Shown one piece after another: positions 66-46,124 of a stretch of 64,000 nt of DNA. Origin of the DNA: Actinomycetota bacterium (GTDB taxonomy: Bacteria > Actinomycetota > Actinomycetes > Streptosporangiales > Streptosporangiaceae). Positions within the stretch are counted from its first letter, which is position 1. Each line of letters begins with the position of its first letter. A program made the position numbers and the translations under genes. A model generated the notes under the pieces. The model saw nothing but the letters and a program-made list of their open reading frames with translations, did not search any database and was not told the origin of the DNA. The DNA is taken from positions 4,339 to 68,338 of the forward strand of contig PMSU01000194.1 in NCBI GenBank assembly GCA_003168255.1, read 5' to 3'.

Positions 66-1217
66 TCACCCGGGCAGTCCCTTGGCCAGGATCTCGAGCT
101 GGATCTCGTCGGTACCGCCGCCGATGCGCAGCACCCGGACGTCGCGGTAGTGGCGCGCGACGGGCGTCTCCTCCAGGAAGCCGCTGCCGCCGAAGATCTG
201 GACGCACTCGTCGACGATGTGGCATGCCGCGATCGCGGCGTGGTACTTGGCCATGGCCACCGACTTCGCGGTCTCGGGGTGACCGCCGTCCAGCCGCGCC
301 GCGGCCCGGTAGGTGAGCAAGCTGGCTGCCTCCAGCTCCACCGACAGGGCCGCGAGGCGATGCCGGATTGCCTGCATGCTGATCAGCGGTGAGCCGAACG
401 CTTCGCGGTCACGGGCGTAGGCAGTCGCGGCGTGCAGGCACTCGGCCGCGTGACCCAGCCCCATCGCGGCGAGGGCCAGCCGTTCCAGCTGGAAGGCCGA
501 CATGATCTGGTGGAAGCCGCGGCCGGCGTCGCCGAGCACCGCGTCGCCCGCGACCAGGCAGTCCGCGAGGATCACCTCGCGGGTGTCCGAAGCGTGCCAG
601 CCCATCTTGCGCAGCGGCCTGCCCACGGACAGGCCGGGATTATCGGCATCGACGATGAACGTGGTGATGCCCCGGTGCCCGTCTGGCGACGTGCGCGCGG
701 CGACCACGAAAACGTCGGCGATCCCGGCGTTGGTGATGAACATCTTGGTGCCGTCGAGCCGGAACCCGCCGTCGGCCGCGGTCGCGCGGGTCCTGATAGC
801 GCCGACGTCCGAGCCTGCGCCGGGCTCGGTGACGGCGATGGCCGCGACCTTCTCACCGGCGATAAGCCCCGGCAGGTAGCGGGCCCGCTGTTCGTCGGTG
901 CCAAACTGCGCGATATGCGGCGTGGACATGTAGCCGGTCACCAGCGCGGTGACGGCGATGCCGCCGCTGGCCCTGGCCAGCTCCTCGGCGAGCACGATGA
1001 TGGCGAGCGTGTCGCCCGCGCCGCCCCCGTATTCCTCCGGCACCGCCAGCCCGAGCAGCCCGGCGCTGCCCATCTCCTTCAGCAGGGCGGCCGGAGGGCG
1101 GCCGGCTTCCTCCGATTCCTCGACCAGCGGGCGCACCTGACGGTCCACGAAATCCCGAACGCTGGCCCGGAACTCCTCGTGCTCAGCGTCAAGCTCCCAG
1201 GTCATGGATGCGGTCAT
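66..1217 (-). CDS. acyl-CoA dehydrogenase
   Basis: This 383-aa protein has the usual length of a medium-chain-type acyl-CoA dehydrogenase, an FAD enzyme that introduces the alpha,beta double bond into acyl-CoA. Visible family landmarks are AVTEPGAGSDVGAI and GTKMFITNAG in the middle domain, and REAFGSPLISMQAI with a C-terminal IFGGSGFLEETPV followed by IGGGTDEIQLEILAKGL. The ATG at 1217 has a GGAAGG ribosome site about six bases upstream; a second ATG at 1205 is possible. It is divergent from the TetR gene at 1285, and the 67-bp gap contains a strong palindrome, so the TetR product probably controls both genes. The natural substrate is not known. Confidence 0.93.
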   Translation of the reverse strand: MTASMTWELDAEHEEFRASVRDFVDRQVRPLVEESEEAGRPPAALLKEMGSAGLLGLAVPEEYGGGAGDTLAIIVLAEELARASGGIAVTALVTGYMSTPHIAQFGTDEQRARYLPGLIAGEKVAAIAVTEPGAGSDVGAIRTRATAADGGFRLDGTKMFITNAGIADVFVVAARTSPDGHRGITTFIVDADNPGLSVGRPLRKMGWHASDTREVILADCLVAGDAVLGDAGRGFHQIMSAFQLERLALAAMGLGHAAECLHAATAYARDREAFGSPLISMQAIRHRLAALSVELEAASLLTYRAAARLDGGHPETAKSVAMAKYHAAIAACHIVDECVQIFGGSGFLEETPVARHYRDVRVLRIGGGTDEIQLEILAKGLPG

Positions 1218-13276: not shown

Positions 13277-14776
13277 TCAGCATTCGATCACGTTGACGGC
13301 GAGGCCGCCGCGCGAGGTCTCCTTGTACTTGGAATGCATGTCGCGCCCGGTGTCCCGCATAGTCTTGATCACTTTGTCCAGCGAGACGAAATGCTGCCCG
13401 TCGCCGCGCAGCGCCATCCTGGACGCGGTGAGCGCCTGCACCGAGGCCATGGCGTTCCGCTCGATGCACGGCACCTGGACCAGGCCGCCGATCGGGTCGC
13501 AGGTAAGGCCGAGGTGGTGCTCCATCGCGATCTCGGCAGCGTTCTCCACCTGCCCGGGGGTCCCGCCGAGCACCTCGGTGAGGCCGGCCGCCGCCATCGA
13601 GCACGCGGAGCCGACTTCGCCCTGGCAGCCGACCTCGGCTCCGGAGATCGACGCGTTCTCCTTGAACAGGATGCCGATGGCGCCGGCGGCGAGCAGGAAG
13701 CGCACCACGCCTTCGTCGCCGTAGCCGGGGACGAAGTCCCGGTAGTAGTGCAGCACCGCCGGGATGATGCCCGCCGCCCCGTTGGTCGGCGCGGTGACCA
13801 CCCGCCCGCCGGCGGCGTTCTCCTCACTGACCGCGAGGGCATAGAGCGTCAGCCAGTCCATGGCCCGCAGCGGATCGGGCGACGGACCACCCTCGCCTGC
13901 CCCGCGCACCCCATCCGCCTCGCTCGCCCCACGTACAGCATTCGCCGCGTCCGCCCCGCGCACTCCATCCGCCGCGTCCGCCCCGCGCACTCCATCCGCC
14001 ACGTCTGCCCCGTCCGCCTGGGTCAGCTGGGCGTAGACGGCCGACGCGCGCCTGCCGACCTTGAGCCCGCCCGGCAGCGTGCCACCGGTGGCACACCCCC
14101 GGCGCACGCACTCCGCCATGACCCGCCAGCGGTCCAGCAGGCCGGCCCTGGTCTGCGCTTCGGGCCGCCAGGCGGTCTCGTTCGCCAGCATCAGCCCGCT
14201 GATCGACAGGCCCGTCCGCTCGGTCAGTTCCAGCAGTTCAGCAGCGTTGCCGAACCGGTGCGGCAGCTCCCTGTCGTCCGGCTTGATCCGGTCGGTTCCC
14301 GCCGCGCCCTCGTCGACGACGAACCCGCCGCCGACCGAGTAGTAGATCCGCGACGCCAGCTCGGTGCCGGCGGAGTCGGCAGCGGTGAACGACATCCCGT
14401 TGGGGTGAGCGGGCAGCGAGCGCTTGCGCTCGAACTCGAGGTCGGCGGCCGGATCGAACGTGATCTCGTGCTCGCCGAGCAGGTTCACCCGGGCGCGTTC
14501 CCTGATGGCCGCGAGCCTCGCCGGAATTCCGTCCACGTCGACCTGGTCGGGTGTCTCGCCCTCCAGCCCCAGCAGCACCGCCTTGTCGCTGCCGTGCCCC
14601 TTCCCGGTCAGGCCCAGCGATCCGTACAGCACCACGTGCACCGATGCCACCTGGGACAGCAGGCCATCGGCCCGCAGGCCGACGGCGAACCGGCCTGCCG
14701 CGGTCATCGGCCCGACGGTGTGCGAGCTCGACGGGCCGATCCCGATCTTGAAGAGGTCGAAGACGCTGATCGTCAT
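13277..14776 (-). CDS. sdaA: L-serine ammonia-lyase (single-chain, iron-sulfur type) with internal repeat insertion
   Basis: This 499-aa enzyme deaminates L-serine to pyruvate. The N-terminal beta domain starts [19 protein letters not shown]. The alpha domain carries [36 protein letters not shown], whose cysteines are expected 4Fe-4S ligands, and ends [12 protein letters not shown]. About 50 extra residues of ADGVRGADA-type repeats (roughly residues 255-300) interrupt the linker between domains, making it longer than the usual ~455 aa. It follows gcvT and gcvH in one leftward cluster, linking glycine cleavage to serine breakdown. Confidence 0.93.
13897..14020. repeat. 27-bp in-frame repeats inside sdaA
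   Basis: Four to five degenerate 27-bp units (containing CGCACTCCATCCGCC) encode nine-residue repeats of the ADAADGVRG type. The two most similar units sit side by side. They occupy the interdomain linker, where length change would be tolerated. Confidence 0.8.
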
Positions 14777-14822
14777 TGATCCATCCGCCCCTCAACACTG
14801 CCAGGCGCTAACCAGGCACTGG

Positions 14823-15206
14823 TCAGTCGGCTTCCTTGATCAGCTCGGCGTACTGGTCGGCCGAGAGCAGATCGGCCGGCGGCTGGCCGGCCAGCCTGAC
14901 CTTGAACAGCCAGCCGATCCCGTAGGGGTCGGCGTTGACCTGGCCGGGGTCTTCCTCTACCTCGGTGTTCACCTCGGTGACCTCGCCGTCCACCGGCGAG
15001 TAGAGATCGCTCACCGACTTGGTGGATTCGATCTCGCCGCATGGCTCGCCCGCCGTGACCTTCGTGCCCGGCGCCGGCGGGGACACGTAGACCACATCGC
15101 CGAGCGCACTGGCGGCATGCTCGGTGATGCCGACGGAGGCGAGGGTGCCGTCGATCGCCACCCATTCGTGCTCTGCGGTGTAGTGAAGCTGCTCCGGGAC
15201 CGCCAT
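14823..15206 (-). CDS. gcvH: glycine cleavage system H protein
   Basis: The 127-aa lipoyl carrier has the lipoylation motif [20 protein letters not shown], with the modified lysine in ESTKS, and the C-terminal [13 protein letters not shown]. It shuttles the aminomethyl group between the P, T and L proteins. It begins three bases after gcvT ends. The gcvP gene is not in this stretch and must lie elsewhere. Confidence 0.96.
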
Positions 15207-15209
15207 GGG

Positions 15210-16352
15210 TCATTGCCTCCTCTGGTAAAAGGGGAGCGTCACAAGGTCAGCGGCCTCGCCGCGCCCTCTGATGTCGATCGATAGCCGGCTGCTGTCGCCG
15301 GCGGCTGTCTCCGCCGCGAGCGAGGCGACCTCCGGGTCCAGGTAGGCCATGGCTATGGGCACGCCGAGAGTCGGGGACGGCGCGCCGCTCGTCACCGTGC
15401 CGCATGGCGTGGCGTCCCACAGCACGTCGTAACCGTGCCGTGGCACCCGCCGGGAACGGCAGGTTAGTCCGGCCAGGACGCGCCGCGGCGGTCGCTTCGC
15501 GACCTCGGCAAGCGCTGCTCGGCCCACGAAGTCTCCTGGCTTGTCAAGTTTGACCACCCGGCCCAGGCCGGCGTCGAACGGAGTCACATCTGGGCCGAGT
15601 TCGTTGCCGTACAGCGGCATGCCGGCCTCAAGGCGGAGGGTATCGCGAGCCGCGAGGCCGGCCGGCACAAGCCCCTGATCTTCGCCCGCGGCGGCCAGCC
15701 CGGCCCACAGCGGCTCGGCGTCCTGCGGCGCGCAGAACATCTCGAAGCCGTCTTCGCCGGTGTACCCGGTGCGGGCGAGCAGCACCTGCCTGCCGCAGAC
15801 GGCAGCCGGCTGGCTCGCGTAGTACTTCACTTCGGGCAGATCGGTGCCGGTAACCGCGGACAGTATCGCAGCGCCGTTCGGACCCTGGATTGCAATTAGG
15901 GCATACTCGCTGGTCCGGTCGGTGACCTCGGCGCCGAACCCGGCGGCCCGGTGCGTCAATTCCTTGTGCACGACCGCGGTATTCGCCGCGTTCGCCACCA
16001 CCAGGAACTCCGCAGCCGCCAGCCGGTAGACGATCAGGTCGTCGAGCACCCCGCCATCCTCGGCGCAGATCATCGTGTAGCGTGCCCGGCCGGCGGCGAG
16101 TGCGGACAGCCGCCCGACGAGCGCGTAGTCGAGCGCGGCTGCCGCGTCCGGCCCGGTCACCGCGATCTCGCCCATGTGGGACAGGTCGAACAGCCCGGCC
16201 GCGGTGCGGACCGCGCGGTGCTCGGCAGTCTCGCTGCCGTATCGCAGGGGCATCAGCCATCCGGCGAATCCGGTCATGCTGGCGCCGAGGCGTTCGTGCA
16301 CCGGCTGCAAGGGGCTGTGCCGCAGCTGGCCGGCGGGCTGGATCTGTGTCAT
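15210..16352 (-). CDS. gcvT: glycine cleavage aminomethyltransferase (T protein)
   Basis: This 380-aa protein transfers the methylene group from the aminomethyl-lipoyl H protein to tetrahydrofolate, releasing ammonia. Seen: GASMTGFAGWLMPLRYGS, LFDLSHMGEIAVTGPDA, ARTGYTGEDGFEMF and RDTLRLEAGMPLYGNEL. The ATG at 16352 has a GGAG nine bases upstream; an upstream in-frame TTG at 16367 is less likely. It heads the gcvT-gcvH-sdaA cluster. The short divergent gap shows no glycine riboswitch. Confidence 0.95.
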   Translation of the reverse strand: MTQIQPAGQLRHSPLQPVHERLGASMTGFAGWLMPLRYGSETAEHRAVRTAAGLFDLSHMGEIAVTGPDAAAALDYALVGRLSALAAGRARYTMICAEDGGVLDDLIVYRLAAAEFLVVANAANTAVVHKELTHRAAGFGAEVTDRTSEYALIAIQGPNGAAILSAVTGTDLPEVKYYASQPAAVCGRQVLLARTGYTGEDGFEMFCAPQDAEPLWAGLAAAGEDQGLVPAGLAARDTLRLEAGMPLYGNELGPDVTPFDAGLGRVVKLDKPGDFVGRAALAEVAKRPPRRVLAGLTCRSRRVPRHGYDVLWDATPCGTVTSGAPSPTLGVPIAMAYLDPEVASLAAETAAGDSSRLSIDIRGRGEAADLVTLPFYQRRQ

Positions 16353-16418
16353 GGGCGGGCACTCCAAAGGTCGGTTGCGACCCTAGCCGGCGCCGTCTCG
16401 TCGTGATAAGGCAGACGA

Positions 16419-16697
16419 ATGGACCTGCTCACTGAGGAAGCGCTCGCCCTAGAGCTTGCCACCGTGCCCGACTGGGCCCACGTCGACGGGAGCATCAGGC
16501 GCACCGTCACGCGGGCGGATTTCCGCGCCGCGCTGCTTTACGTCGGCGTGGTCGCCTACCTGGCGGAAGAGGCAAATCATCATCCGGACATCCTGATTCG
16601 ATGGAACAAGGTGACGCTGACCCTCTCCACCCACTCGGCGGGCGGCCTGACTGCCACTGATTTCACGCTCGCCAGGACCATCGACGCGCTGACCTGA
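16419..16697 (+). CDS. 4a-hydroxytetrahydrobiopterin dehydratase (pterin carbinolamine dehydratase)
   Basis: This 92-aa protein has the family's normal size and its signature EEANHHPDILIRWNKVTLTLSTHSAGGLT; the HHP pair is part of the active site. It dehydrates 4a-hydroxy-pterins and may also help protein assembly. It is divergent from gcvT, perhaps because both touch pterin/folate chemistry. Confidence 0.92.
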   Translation: MDLLTEEALALELATVPDWAHVDGSIRRTVTRADFRAALLYVGVVAYLAEEANHHPDILIRWNKVTLTLSTHSAGGLTATDFTLARTIDALT

Positions 16698-16728
16698 GCT
16701 CCCCGGCTGACGGCAGTGGTTCGCCGGC

Positions 16729-17973
16729 TCAGGCGCTGAAGTCGCAGGGCATCCGCTTGATCCCGTTGATGAAGCTGGACAGCAGCCGGTCCGGCTCGGC
16801 GGCGACCCGGATGTCGGGCACCCGGCCGAGCAGTTCGCGCAGCATCACCGTGATCTCCCGGCGGGCCAGGTGCGCGCCGAGGCAGAAGTGCGGGCCTGGA
16901 CCGCCGAAACCCAGGTGCGGGTTGGGGTGGCGGGTGATGTCGAATCTCGCCGGGTCGGTGAACACGGACGCGTCGCGGTTGGCCGCCCAGTAGACCAGCA
17001 GGGTCTTGTCGCCTTCGGCGTAGTCGTGGCCGTTCATGGTGTAATCACGGGTCAGCGTCCGCCGCATGAAGATCACCGGTGACGCATAGCGGACGATCTC
17101 CTCCACCGCGCCGCCGATCCGCGGCTCGAAGTCAGCCAGCAGGAGAGCGCGCTGATCGCCGAACTGGGTCAGCAGCCACAGCGCATGGGAGATGGCGTTG
17201 CGGGTGGTCTCGTTGCCGGCCACGACCAGCAGGATGAAGAAGGAAGCCAGCTCTGCGGTGGTCAGATGCTCCCCGTCGATGTTCGCGTTGACCAGGGCCG
17301 AGACAAGATCGTCTGTGGGGTTGCCCGCCCGGGTGGCGCCCAGGTCGGTGACCAGCGCGCGGAGTTCTTCCGCCGCGGCGAAGATCTGGCCGAGCGCTTC
17401 ATCCATGTCCTCGCTGACCAGTTCGGTGTCGAAGCCGGACAGGATGATGTTGCTGTTGCGCAGCACCATGTCGTAGTGGGCGTCGCCGATGCCCATCATG
17501 TTGCAAATGATCTTGAGCGGAAGCCGGACCGCGACGTGCTGCACGAAATCGCACGGGCCCCTCTCCAGCAATTCCGCGACGACCTGCTCGGCCGTCCGCT
17601 GTACGTCGTCCTCGAAATTCTTGATCATCTTGGGCGTGAAGGAGCGGGAGACGATCCGGCGCAGCCTGGAGTGCCGCGGGTCATCCATGTTGATCATCGA
17701 GCCGAAGTACTCATTGAACTCAGCGGGCACATCCGGGACCTGCGTCGCGCCACGGCCCGAGCAGAACACCTCGGGATTCCGGCTCGCTTCCGTCACGTCG
17801 GAATGCCTGATGAGAGCGTAATATCCGGGCCCCTTATCCGCGAAGGGCGTCTCGGGCTCGGCGAAGAAAGCAGGGTGGTCGAGGGCGCGCAGCCGCGCGA
17901 AGGCCGCCTCACGTTCCGCGAGCGGGAGGCCCCAGAACTCCATGTCCGACAGGTCGATGTCCAGGGCTGCCAT
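16729..17973 (-). CDS. cytochrome P450
   Basis: A 414-aa bacterial class I P450. It shows the I-helix region FFILLVVAGNETTRNAIS, the K-helix EEIVRYASP and the heme loop FGGPGPHFCLGAHLARREI with the axial cysteine. It resembles actinobacterial CYP families acting on steroids, fatty acids or terpenes; the substrate is not deducible. No ferredoxin gene is adjacent. Confidence 0.95.
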   Translation of the reverse strand: MAALDIDLSDMEFWGLPLAEREAAFARLRALDHPAFFAEPETPFADKGPGYYALIRHSDVTEASRNPEVFCSGRGATQVPDVPAEFNEYFGSMINMDDPRHSRLRRIVSRSFTPKMIKNFEDDVQRTAEQVVAELLERGPCDFVQHVAVRLPLKIICNMMGIGDAHYDMVLRNSNIILSGFDTELVSEDMDEALGQIFAAAEELRALVTDLGATRAGNPTDDLVSALVNANIDGEHLTTAELASFFILLVVAGNETTRNAISHALWLLTQFGDQRALLLADFEPRIGGAVEEIVRYASPVIFMRRTLTRDYTMNGHDYAEGDKTLLVYWAANRDASVFTDPARFDITRHPNPHLGFGGPGPHFCLGAHLARREITVMLRELLGRVPDIRVAAEPDRLLSSFINGIKRMPCDFSA

Positions 17974-39212: not shown

Positions 39213-40050
39213 ATGCGGCGAGCCTTAACGATCACAGCGGCGGCGGCAGCCCTGGTCATGTGGTGCGCCGGCGTAGCAAGCGCCACCACCACGTGGTCGA
39301 TCGAGCCGACCCCCCCTTGTGTCCGGCAGCCAGCTGGAGGGGGTCTCGTGCCTGTCGGCGACAAGCTGCACCGCGGTCGGGGACTACCAGACCAAATCCG
39401 GGGTTGACAAGACGCTAGTCGAACACTGGGACGGGAGCACCTGGGCGATCCAGCCCACGCCAAGCCCATCGGAGTGCGCCAGCTACCTGCAGGCGGTCTC
39501 GTGTACCTCGGCCGCACAGTGCACCGCGGTGGGGAACTACATCAGGCATGGCTATTACGCGACGCTGGCCGAGCGCTGGAATGGCACCACGTGGGCGGTT
39601 CAGGCCACTCACGGCCCATCCGGGGTGAAGCAGAACGCCCTGAACGCGATCTCCTGCACCTCGGCGACCACCTGCACCGCGGTCGGCTCAACCGCCACCC
39701 CGGGCCCTGCTGGCCCTGCCGTGCCGCTCGCCGAACGCTGGAGCGGCGGCACGTGGGCCGTCCAGCCCACGCCGAGCCCGTCCGGCGCCCTCTTTGCCTT
39801 TCTCTCGGGTGTCTCGTGTGCCTCGAAAACCGTCTGCACCGCGGTAGGGGAGACCATAACCAGCAGCGGGAACTATCTGGCGCTGGCTGAGCACTGGAAC
39901 GGCGGCGCGTGGCGAATCCAGCCAACCGCCAGACCAGCGAGCGGCAAGGGCCTGTCCGGGGTCTGGTGCACCTCGGTCACCAGCTGCACCGCGGTCGGTT
40001 CCGCGACCCTCAAGCACGAGCAAGGCAACGCGCTAGCCGAGCAGACGTAG
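39213..40050 (+). pseudogene. secreted SCTAVG-repeat protein broken at a C7 tract
   Basis: The ATG at 39213 has GGAGG five bases upstream and opens a signal peptide (ALTITAAAAALVMWCAGVASA). At 39310-39316 a run of seven C shifts the frame; removing one C joins TTTWSIEPTP to LVSGSQLEGVSC. The remainder encodes about five repeats of the form VSCTSAxxCTAVG...LAEHWNGxxW.VQPTP, a cell-surface/secreted beta-repeat family of actinomycetes with no known function. It could be a pseudogene, a phase-variable gene or a sequencing error. Confidence 0.8.
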
Positions 40051-40152
40051 CAGCCACCAAGATCAGCCGCTGGGACCCCGACCGCATCCAGCCAGCCAGG
40101 ACTTTGACCAGAGCACTCGCCCGGACATCAGCGGCGTGGTAATGCTGCAACC

Positions 40153-41103
40153 ATGAAGGTCACGCGGCCAGTCCTGCGGGTTGCCGCTGTGGCCGTCATC
40201 GGGGTGGCGGTGGCCGTGTCGGTGACCCAGGTCATCAGCGGCGGCCGGTGGGACTGGTGGTGGCTGGCGGCGGCGCTCGTCCTGGCTATCCTCGCCGGCG
40301 TCCTCGACCAGCTGCTGAAGCGAAGCGACGGTCGTGATGCCGGGCCGCGGCCGGTGCTGTGGGCCGCGCTGCAAGACAGCGACGGGAAACCCAGGCCGCT
40401 CGGCGACGTCACTCCCCGCGACCTCGGCGTGCACCCCTCCCGGTTCGGCGCCGACGGCGACTGCCCCTACATCCCGCGCGCCGCAGACGCCTTACTCGAC
40501 GAGGCACTCGCCGTTCCCAGCCAGCGGGCGATCATCGTGCAGCGACCCCGGCTGGCCGGGACCACCCGGACCCTGGCCCGCGCTGCCCGGCACCACCTCC
40601 CCGGCCACCGGGCAGCCGCCTTCACCGACGACCCGCAGATCCCGCTCACCGACATGATCACCCAGGCCGGGCAGTGGGCCAAAGACAGCGACGGCCCCGG
40701 GGCGGTGCTGTGGCTGGACGCGATCACCCCCGCCCGGCTCACCAGCCTCGCCCACGCCCTGGCCGGCGAGCTGCCCGACCGGCTGCGGCCGGTCGGCGGG
40801 ATGTACGTGATGCGCGAGCAGCTCAACCGCCTGATCGAGGTGGCCCGCCGGCCGAGCATCGTCGTGCAGGTGATCCCGCTGGGTGTCGGCGCCCATCAGG
40901 GCACGAGCGGGAACTTCGTGATCGCTGATTTCGGGGACGGCCCGTCCGTTGCCTACCAGGACACGGCGGTCCAGGGGCAGGTCGTAGACGACGCGGGGGA
41001 TGTCAAGTCGCTGATGGTGATGTGGGATACGCTCAAGTCTGAGGCCCTGGCACGGGCCGCCTCCCTGGAATTGATCGAGGAAGTAGCGAAGACATGGACC
41101 TGA
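40153..41103 (+). CDS. chimeric protein: membrane anchor + STAND-like ATPase fragment + DUF5753 C-terminus
   Basis: The protein is 316 aa. Residues 1-55 hold two hydrophobic segments (VLRVAAVAVIGVAVAVSV; WWWLAAALVLAILAGVL). Residues about 60-215 resemble the start of actinobacterial NTPase/TPR signalling proteins (TPRDLGVHPSRFG; the odd P-loop IIVQRPRLAGTTRTLARAA; GAVLWLDAITPARL as Walker B). From about residue 216, RPVGGMYVMREQLNRLIEVA to the end is the C-terminal half of DUF5753, normally attached to an XRE helix-turn-helix. The DNA-binding domain is therefore replaced. It overlaps the DUF397 gene by 10 bp, as a normal XRE-DUF5753 gene would. Confidence 0.78.
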   Translation: MKVTRPVLRVAAVAVIGVAVAVSVTQVISGGRWDWWWLAAALVLAILAGVLDQLLKRSDGRDAGPRPVLWAALQDSDGKPRPLGDVTPRDLGVHPSRFGADGDCPYIPRAADALLDEALAVPSQRAIIVQRPRLAGTTRTLARAARHHLPGHRAAAFTDDPQIPLTDMITQAGQWAKDSDGPGAVLWLDAITPARLTSLAHALAGELPDRLRPVGGMYVMREQLNRLIEVARRPSIVVQVIPLGVGAHQGTSGNFVIADFGDGPSVAYQDTAVQGQVVDDAGDVKSLMVMWDTLKSEALARAASLELIEEVAKTWT

Positions 41104-41285
41104 GCCGCGCCGACTGGCGCAAGGCCAGCTACAGCACTGGCAACGGCGGTAATTGCGTCGAAGTAGCGCGCAACTTGCCAGGCTTCGTGGCCGTCCGCGA
41201 CTCGAAGGACCCCGATGGCCCGGCGCTGGTGATGGCGCCCGCGGACTGGCAGGCTTTCACTGACCGGGTGAAGGCCCGGTATTGA
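41094..41285 (+). CDS. DUF397 domain protein
   Basis: The 63-aa protein is a complete DUF397 domain: WRKASYSTGNGGNCVEVA, VAVRDSKDPDGPALVMAP, WQAFTDRVKA. DUF397 proteins pair with XRE-DUF5753 regulators in streptomycete development (WhiJ/AbaA-type loci) and may act like antitoxins. Here the partner is the chimeric membrane protein immediately upstream. Confidence 0.93.
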   Translation: MDLSRADWRKASYSTGNGGNCVEVARNLPGFVAVRDSKDPDGPALVMAPADWQAFTDRVKARY

Positions 41286-43590: not shown

Positions 43591-44450
43591 CTAGTTTGGC
43601 TTGTCGTCTTGGCCTGTTGTGCTGGACAGGGCATCGCAGAACGCTTGAACGGCTAGCTGACCGTCAGCGGCGGCGACGGCTGGGTCAATGTCTGGATGAT
43701 CCAGGGTGATCTGGTCGACGTAGGCGGCGGTGCCCTGGGCTACTGAATCCCCGAAGTTGGCCTTCAGGTCCTCTAGGGCGCTGCCGAGCGATGCCACTGA
43801 GGTCCCGAAGACGGTTCTGACCCGTTCGGCGGCGGACGGGCGTCGCCATGATCATTGTGCAGCAGGACGAATGCGATGTCGTACCAGTCCTTGGGCTTGC
43901 GCCGGGAATGGGCAGCAGCGGCCTTGGCCAGCAGGAAGCCGCCAAGTCCTGCGACATTGACCTCAGCCTGCCTGGGAACGCCGTCGTCAACGGCGGTGAG
44001 GATGCGGACCTCGCTGTCCCGGGCCGCGTTGCCAGTACCGCGCAGGTTTACCGCCCCGAGATCTTGGCAGCCGGTGAACTTGACGATCGCCGCCGCTGGC
44101 TCGGTGTCAAGGTCGGCCAGCAGCTCGAACTTCACCACAGCGGCCTCAGAGCCAATGACTGACCTCCAGCGCCAGACATGCTGATCATCGGGCTGGAACC
44201 CGGCAGCGCGCAGGGCGTTTTCGAGCCGGGCAGCATGAACAGATCCACTGCTGATTTCAAGGTCGACCTGGACGTCGACATCCGTGGTGCCTGCGTGAAG
44301 GATGCCAGATTTAGCACAGAGCAACGCCGGCACGAGCCCGCCAAGCAAGACGAACTCGGGCCGCCCGCCATAGTGGTGCACGACACGCACCAGCGCGAGC
44401 TCGGCGGCTGCCCTAGCCGCCAGCGAGCGAACCGGCTCCTCGTCAGGCAC
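43591..44450 (-). pseudogene. AbiEii-like nucleotidyltransferase toxin, frameshifted
   Basis: The GTG at 44450 has AGGAGG six bases upstream and overlaps the antitoxin stop. The N-terminal nucleotidyltransferase core is intact: FVLLGGLVPALLCAKSG and GTTDVDVQVDLEI (GG...TxDVD). Around 43834 the frame slips by one base: the first frame ends at 43773 with meaningless residues, while the family-like C-terminus (AAERVRTVFGTSVASLGSAL to the stop at 43591) continues in another frame. Type IV toxins of this kind modify tRNA or GTP-related targets. Loss of function is likely. Confidence 0.75.
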
Positions 44451-45399
44451 GCAGCACCTCCTCACGCAAATGCTCTGCGGCGTCTTCGCCCCTCACGCCT
44501 GTTGTCCGCAGATCAGCGTAGGCGCGCGGCCACAGCACTGATGTCAGCCCTGGTTTGATCTGCGAGGCCACCGCGCCGTTGGCCGGGGTCGGAAACGGTC
44601 GTAGCAGCAGACGGCCGCCATCAATCTCATGCAGGCCTGCCACAGCGGCTGCCCTGCGCAGATCGCCATGGGTCCGGCCCGTCACATAGACCTCCATCGG
44701 CACCGGCTGAGTCAGCACCGGTGCCAGGACAGCGGCGGACAGCGCGCTAGTCACCGCCCAGCGGATGCCCGCAGCCTGCCATTTCTGGCCAGCCTCGATC
44801 ACGTCTAGGACGGGATCCCTCCACAGCACGCCAACCCGCAGCGAAGTCGGCGGTCGCAGCCGTTTGGCAGCCGCTGCGTAGGCGTCAAGGAGCGCCTGCG
44901 GGTCGGTGACTTGTCGGCCTGAGTGCCGGCCCCGGGCAGCCTTGCTCCCGAGAAACCCATCACGTTCCAGGAACTTCAAGGACTCAGCCACCGTGCTCAG
45001 CGCCAGGCCAGTATGGTGCTCGACAGCTGACACCGTAGCTGGGCAGCCGGTCAGCAGGACCTCGCAGACCGCTAGCGTGGCCGGCCGCCAGCCAAGTTTC
45101 GTGTCCAACGGCACCGGTGGGCTTCCGCTACGCGAGATACCCAGCGGACCAGCCGTGATCTCGGCCGCTCCGCTCTCATCAACCCACCCCACGCCTTCCC
45201 GGCGAGCCAATTCCCGCGCACCAGGCGACATCTGCGGCGCAGCCACAACGTCTGGCCGCGGATGGGTATCCAACGCTTCGCGCACCTGCCTCGGCCATCC
45301 GACCGGCAGCCAGCGCAACCGAAGCTTCCGTCCCGCCGCGGACACGCAGACATCTCGATCCAGATGGCCGGTTACTTCGATCGGGTAGCCAGGCGGCAT
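44443..45399 (-). CDS. AbiEi-like type IV antitoxin/transcriptional regulator
   Basis: The 318-aa protein starts at ATG 45399, with GGAGG upstream; an in-frame GTG at 45438 is possible. The first ~130 residues resemble the AbiEi family (DVVAAPQMSPGARELARREGVGWVDESG). A winged helix follows (CPATVSAVEHHTGLALSTVAESLKFLERDGFL). AbiEi antitoxins repress their operon through short repeats, and such repeats lie directly upstream. Confidence 0.72.
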   Translation of the reverse strand: MPPGYPIEVTGHLDRDVCVSAAGRKLRLRWLPVGWPRQVREALDTHPRPDVVAAPQMSPGARELARREGVGWVDESGAAEITAGPLGISRSGSPPVPLDTKLGWRPATLAVCEVLLTGCPATVSAVEHHTGLALSTVAESLKFLERDGFLGSKAARGRHSGRQVTDPQALLDAYAAAAKRLRPPTSLRVGVLWRDPVLDVIEAGQKWQAAGIRWAVTSALSAAVLAPVLTQPVPMEVYVTGRTHGDLRRAAAVAGLHEIDGGRLLLRPFPTPANGAVASQIKPGLTSVLWPRAYADLRTTGVRGEDAAEHLREEVLRA

Positions 45400-45782: not shown

Positions 45783-46124
45783 TCAAGCCGCCTCGCCCGC
45801 GTCTCCGCCGTCCGCCTTACCCATGATCTTTGCGGACGAGAGAGCCCCGCCGATGATCAGTTCCGCGAGGGTGGTGGCGACCTGGCGGCCGGCTTCCAGG
45901 TCGGTCTGCACGTACTGCTTCATGGTGAACGCGACATCCGCGTGGCCGATGCGCTTGCTGAGCGCCTTCCAATCGATCTTCGCATCCCGGCCAGCGGTCG
46001 CGTAGCTGTGGCGGACGTCGTGCAGGTCGATCTCCGGGAGGCATGCCGCCGCAGCGAGTGTCTTGAAGCGCCGCGTGATCGTGTCCGGGTGCGGTGCCTT
46101 GCCGTTCTCCCAGCAGAGCAGCAC
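45783..46124 (-). pseudogene. tyrosine recombinase (phage-type integrase), C-terminal fragment
   Basis: The fragment encodes about 113 residues. It keeps the catalytic LHDVRHSYAT (HxxR), the second histidine region KRIGHADVAFTMKQY and the nucleophile Tyr in MKQYVQTD. The N-terminal core-binding domain and the first catalytic Arg are missing; upstream sequence is unrelated in all frames. The position beside att site A is that of an integrated element's int gene. Confidence 0.85.

Follow-up and report, generated by a model that had tools for sequence, protein, structure and literature searches.

The frame at the centre of this study, in a 64,000-nucleotide stretch of DNA from a Streptosporangiaceae bacterium (hereafter the window), joins the 5′ part of a membrane STAND-like gene to the 3′ part of a DUF5753 gene, and runs into a complete DUF397 gene (Table 1). 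We consider it very probable that this is a chance gene fusion arising from illegitimate recombination, in which a regulator has decayed and the DUF397 gene is the part that survives. As far as sequence can tell, this is the best reading of a sharp joint, a scrap of recombinase gene with a second deletion beside it, the lack of a second fusion among the genomes searched, and truncated DUF5753 genes elsewhere. Against it stand a frame that is still open over 316 codons with a coding-like GC3 of 0.90, a DUF5753 part without clear relaxation, and the residues kept in its C-terminal part.

Table 1. Features of the fusion locus (window coordinates) and partial DUF5753 loci of the same genome
Feature	Location	Strand	DUF5753 profile positions	Basis or remark
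38-bp remnant of serine recombinase 3′ end	40064..40101	+		match to C174 copy, 35/38, first 30 bp identical
STAND-derived leader	40091..40152	+		DNA comparison; 87% to C174 leader, last 20 bp before ATG nearly identical
Chimeric ORF, 316 aa	40153..41103	+		open frame, translation, Pfam
Chimera 5′ part, aa 1-212: two membrane helices and truncated STAND-like region, degenerate P-loop	40153..40788	+		84% aa / 88% DNA to longer C174 gene
Joint CTGCGG (Leu-Arg), in frame in STAND paralogue and nearest XRE-DUF5753 relative	40783..40788	+		DNA comparison
Chimera 3′ part, aa 213-316: DUF5753 C-terminal part	40789..41103	+	80-178	71% aa to C62 XRE-DUF5753 protein
Complete DUF397 gene, 63 aa	41094..41285	+		start overlaps chimera stop, as in C62 pair
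Partial DUF5753	C105		53-178	cupin gene runs into fragment
Partial DUF5753	C27		76-177	
Partial DUF5753	window		80-178	
Partial DUF5753	C47		42-121	frameshift in fragment
Partial DUF5753	C143		132-175	last quarter only

The chimeric frame combines parts of two unrelated genes

The chimera begins with ATG, and its sole Pfam match is to DUF5753 (residues 212-310, profile 80-178 of 178, E 2.9e-25), covering the C-terminal 99 profile positions rather than the complete domain. Pfam detects no helix-turn-helix (HTH) in it, N-terminal XRE-type or other, as the original prediction had stated. The two membrane segments that had also been claimed are apparent both as hydrophobic stretches (approximately residues 6-28 and 36-56) and as helices 4-29 and 35-63 of an AF2 model, and the overlapping DUF397 gene is indeed complete (profile 1-55 of 55, E 3.4e-24). 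The AF2 model is uninformative for the DUF5753 part, which the input alignment left unaligned; because the alignment is wrong there, the low confidence in that part carries no meaning.

Residues 67-212 can be aligned with 17 membrane/STAND-like TPR proteins, so that alignment and hydropathy together give N-terminal membrane helices followed by a STAND-like Walker A/B region. No Pfam STAND family is found in the chimera; a relative gives only a sub-threshold match to nSTAND_NTPase5. The earlier description of this region as ATPase-like holds for GAVLWLDAI, which is compatible with a Walker B strand, but not for AGTTRTL, which does not form a functional Walker A. The P-loop lysine is absent across the whole STAND-like family (GPRLAGxT; alignment of 18), which makes ATPase activity doubtful, and among the 18 the chimera alone has Arg at the P-loop position that is Gly in nearly all (QRPRLAG, versus QGPRLAG in the C174 paralogue). 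Its STAND part is cut just after Walker B, ahead of the sensor and TPR parts: beyond residue 212 the chimera lacks the remaining STAND region and the TPR/Sel1 repeats, both of which the C174 paralogue has.

Relatives of both halves exist in the same genome (G000) as separate, far longer genes. The DNA match of the 5′ part to the C174 gene spans 40091-40788; the C174 frame stays open for 626 aa up to the contig end and sits behind a 529-aa serine recombinase, and its product is a membrane protein in which the P-loop is degenerate and TPR/Sel1 repeats are present. On the 3′ side, DNA similarity to the intact C62 XRE-DUF5753 gene extends into DUF397, and the C62 relative is an intact pair with its own DUF397, in which Pfam finds HTH_31 and HTH_3. 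The C174 and C62 genes are relatives of the source genes and not necessarily the actual donors. No further copy of the middle part of the STAND protein was found in G000.

We note in passing the surroundings of the C174 gene, where a proB-like gene directly precedes the serine recombinase (13571-15160) and the STAND-TPR gene (15475-17308). A repeat of about 96 bp, present at some ten other places in the genome, lies at the start of the recombinase frame; no tRNA or known RNA was found in it, and the end of an HNH-type protein may, we presume, be encoded on its reverse strand.

What remains of DUF5753

Seven residues are invariant in 30 DUF5753 proteins (E101, G117, L118, Q120, Y124, R150, and E168 in C62 numbering), and all seven fall in the part lost from the chimera; the nearly invariant residues G176, M181, Q184, L188, P203, G207, F216, and S265 are kept in its C-terminal part. 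Placed on an AF2 model of the C62 protein (pLDDT 91.5), the joint lies inside the DUF5753 alpha/beta domain, just past strand 161-167 and helix 168-172. The Foldseek list for this model outside the HTH includes R.NgoAVII (4rct) and SauUSI (7clg), over approximately 190 columns at E 0.01-0.06, which may offer a weak lead on the DUF5753 fold.

Compared with C174, residues 1-112 show a dS of 0.33 and a dN/dS of 0.35, and residues 113-212 a dS of 0.067 and a dN/dS of 0.91, a contrast between the two 5′ stretches that amounts to approximately 18 changes, with the branch not assignable. The second stretch suggests recent exchange or shorter divergence, with little constraint since. Compared with C62, dN/dS is 0.30 for the DUF5753 part and 0.26 for DUF397, which is ordinary constraint; most of this divergence may predate the fusion.

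Searches for a second fusion

The original prediction had called for a search for the same domain combination in other genomes, and none turned up in the genomes searched. Querying 343 genomes of the family with the chimera gave no other fusion of the same kind: matches fell on one half or the other, and those to the N-terminal half ran on into long STAND frames. A profile of the N-terminal half detected the module in 17 of 395 sampled genomes of the class; in profile scans of the fetched loci, among them those from the 17, both parts stood in one frame at the window's own locus only, where the DUF5753 side of the survey was taken among the matches listed and rare fusions beyond these sets are possible. 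A search of genome contigs with the N-terminal half, which may leave out the own genome, found no relatives, and tblastn against plasmids returned only short matches to the DUF5753 part, in HTH regulators. One candidate, G299:C953 (query 12-260), turned out to be a STAND protein with a weak extension and gives no match to the DUF5753 profile.

A STAND or membrane-module gene does lie near a DUF397 or XRE-DUF5753 gene in some genomes (L031 and L129, more weakly L044 and L128), and such neighbourhoods would provide adjacent genes for a deletion of this kind. At L031 (G050:C35), the same two-helix module, here with another, short C-terminus, follows immediately after a DUF397 gene, which suggests that it is reused. 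In another genus, locus L121 (G006:C45:173800-176800) shows the opposite product: its HTH and initial DUF5753 half (profile 2-85) continue in frame as a membrane protein, and the break falls near the same DUF5753 position as at the window joint.

Two readings would give the chimera a function. According to the first, which recasts the receptor proposed on first inspection as a decoy and which we regard as quite unlikely, the frame is a young functional gene whose DUF5753 C-terminal part binds DUF397 and whose membrane helices sequester it from a DNA-bound XRE protein. The open frame, the two hydrophobic stretches, the conserved C-terminal residues, and the intact overlapping DUF397 all agree with such a role, as does the evidence from 129 natural WhiJ-BldB fusions that these two proteins work together (PMC10294661); however, the invariant DUF5753 residues are all gone from a domain that is cut, a second example was not seen in the genomes searched, and DUF397 is kept at other truncated loci that have no membrane part. 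The second, likewise quite unlikely in our view, is that the chimera is expressed as a newly born, membrane-tethered partner of DUF397, so that a DNA-bound pair has become a membrane-held one. The membrane-located receptor for DUF397 proposed on first inspection finds no support beyond the open frame: the seven residues are lost, and so is everything from the STAND sensor onwards. Were such a receptor real, the WhiJ/BldB network would gain a new architecture, but the evidence favours decay.

DUF397 persists beside truncated DUF5753 genes

Partial DUF5753 genes recur in this genome, making up 5 of its 29 DUF5753 loci (Table 1), and an intact DUF397 frame lies downstream of all five. Across four relatives, only about 3 of 127 DUF5753 loci are reduced to the 3′ part (Fisher p 0.006, nominal and post hoc). 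Downstream DUF397 is intact after the G006:C45 and G006:C49 fragments, and frameshifted after that of G010:C102, where another copy follows further on. None of the other truncated loci examined carries a fused membrane STAND module. We also considered a recurrent breakpoint near LRRPVG (window, C27, and G006:C45), and set it aside as a post hoc pattern of few cases.

One could suppose that the C-terminal part of DUF5753 together with DUF397 is a selected minimal module, with the N-terminus irrelevant and the window one of several instances. The window, C27, and C105 do share an open C-terminal DUF5753 frame and an intact DUF397 under differing upstream sequence. We nevertheless judge this very unlikely, since the C47 fragment is frameshifted and C143 retains little of the domain while both keep DUF397, which indicates that DUF397 is what persists; in addition, the DUF397 that follows the G010 fragment is itself frameshifted.

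DUF397, reported from actinobacteria only (PMC7159879), was proposed by Makarova et al. 2009 to act with XRE proteins in type II toxin-antitoxin systems (PMC2701414), and 14 XRE/DUF397 pairs of S. coelicolor showed no toxin-antitoxin behaviour (PMC10364602). The five loci retain DUF397 beside a truncated XRE-DUF5753 gene, a recurrent arrangement that fits poorly with a DUF397 toxin restrained solely by its neighbour, although other XRE copies could act in trans. Such loci are natural material for asking what DUF397 does alone.

The joint and the upstream scar

At the DNA level, similarity to the C174 STAND gene stops at 40788 and similarity to the C62 XRE gene begins there, slightly earlier than the position of about 40795 first proposed for what is indeed an in-frame fusion. 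CTG CGG reads as Leu-Arg in frame in both genes, so that a short-homology join at this point keeps the frame without selection. Upstream, approximately 268 bp of C174 sequence are missing between the recombinase remnant and the STAND-derived leader, so the locus would carry two short-homology deletions, one at the joint and one upstream. No sigma-70 consensus promoter was found in the leader, and the stretches scanned gave no sigma-70 promoter or terminator pattern, Rfam family, or tRNA.

An assembly error between two loci is highly improbable even in a 7.15-Mb draft of 214 contigs and 93% completeness, given that the 6 bp common to both genes at the joint are too few for ordinary assembler overlap, that the joint lies inside a 72-kb contig, and that the 5′ part is distinct enough from the C174 copy (only 88% identical) not to have been borrowed from it.

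A proposed origin by chance deletion

We infer the following course for the chance fusion. A membrane STAND-TPR gene carried by an element, with a serine recombinase gene upstream, would have landed 5′ of an operon of XRE-DUF5753 and DUF397. The sequence between a point past Walker B in the STAND gene and the LR(R)PVGG codons of the DUF5753 gene would then have been deleted, its flanks meeting at CTGCGG, with loss of what followed in the STAND gene, of the XRE HTH, and of the beginning of DUF5753; of these the joint is directly visible, and the event is reconstructed. With Leu-Arg in frame on both sides, the frame would have remained open of its own accord. A regulatory function is improbable for the 316-aa product, which may also fold poorly. 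The likely survivor is the intact DUF397 gene, which, if transcribed, would rely on the STAND leader and need translation to proceed through the chimera. Its product might yet associate with other DUF397 proteins: BldB of S. venezuelae pairs with most of its DUF397 paralogues (PMC10294661), so an orphan DUF397 may act through other partners. The suggestion of an accidental but open fusion, part of the original prediction, is thus the one that fits, given the separate existence of both source gene types in the genome, the joint, the recombinase scrap with the second deletion, the searches, and the 5′-truncated DUF5753 genes found elsewhere in the genome under other upstream sequence.

Beyond the locus, the window holds an AbiEii-like nucleotidyltransferase that narrowly misses the Pfam cut-off (43773-44465, minus strand) and the C-terminal piece of a tyrosine integrase (45783-46124, minus strand), and the region from 40 to 46 kb looks like a degraded mobile island. 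Another frame (39319-40050, plus strand) encodes a protein built of SCTS...CTAVG repeats, for which no Pfam family exceeds the cut-off; a paralogous stretch of its gene lies on C74 (85% over 108 bp).

Comparison with known systems

The chimera resembles three kinds of locus, each incompletely. Like XRE-DUF5753 (WhiJ/Scr1-like) and DUF397 (BldB/Scr2-like) pairs, it has a DUF5753 C-terminal part that overlaps a complete DUF397; unlike WhiJ/BldB-type pairs, it lacks the HTH, the first part of DUF5753, and the seven invariant residues, and owes its 5′ part to an unrelated membrane protein. With actinobacterial membrane STAND-like TPR proteins such as the C174 paralogue, it shares the two N-terminal helices, the degenerate GPRLAGxT, and a Walker B-like WLD, whereas it differs from that paralogue in ending the STAND part after Walker B, in missing the TPR/Sel1 repeats, and in the change of the P-loop Gly to Arg. 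Finally, it is like the 5′-truncated loci (C27, C105, C47, and C143, and G006:C45, G006:C49, and G010:C102), in which the HTH and the first part of DUF5753 are gone and DUF397 is, in most, intact.
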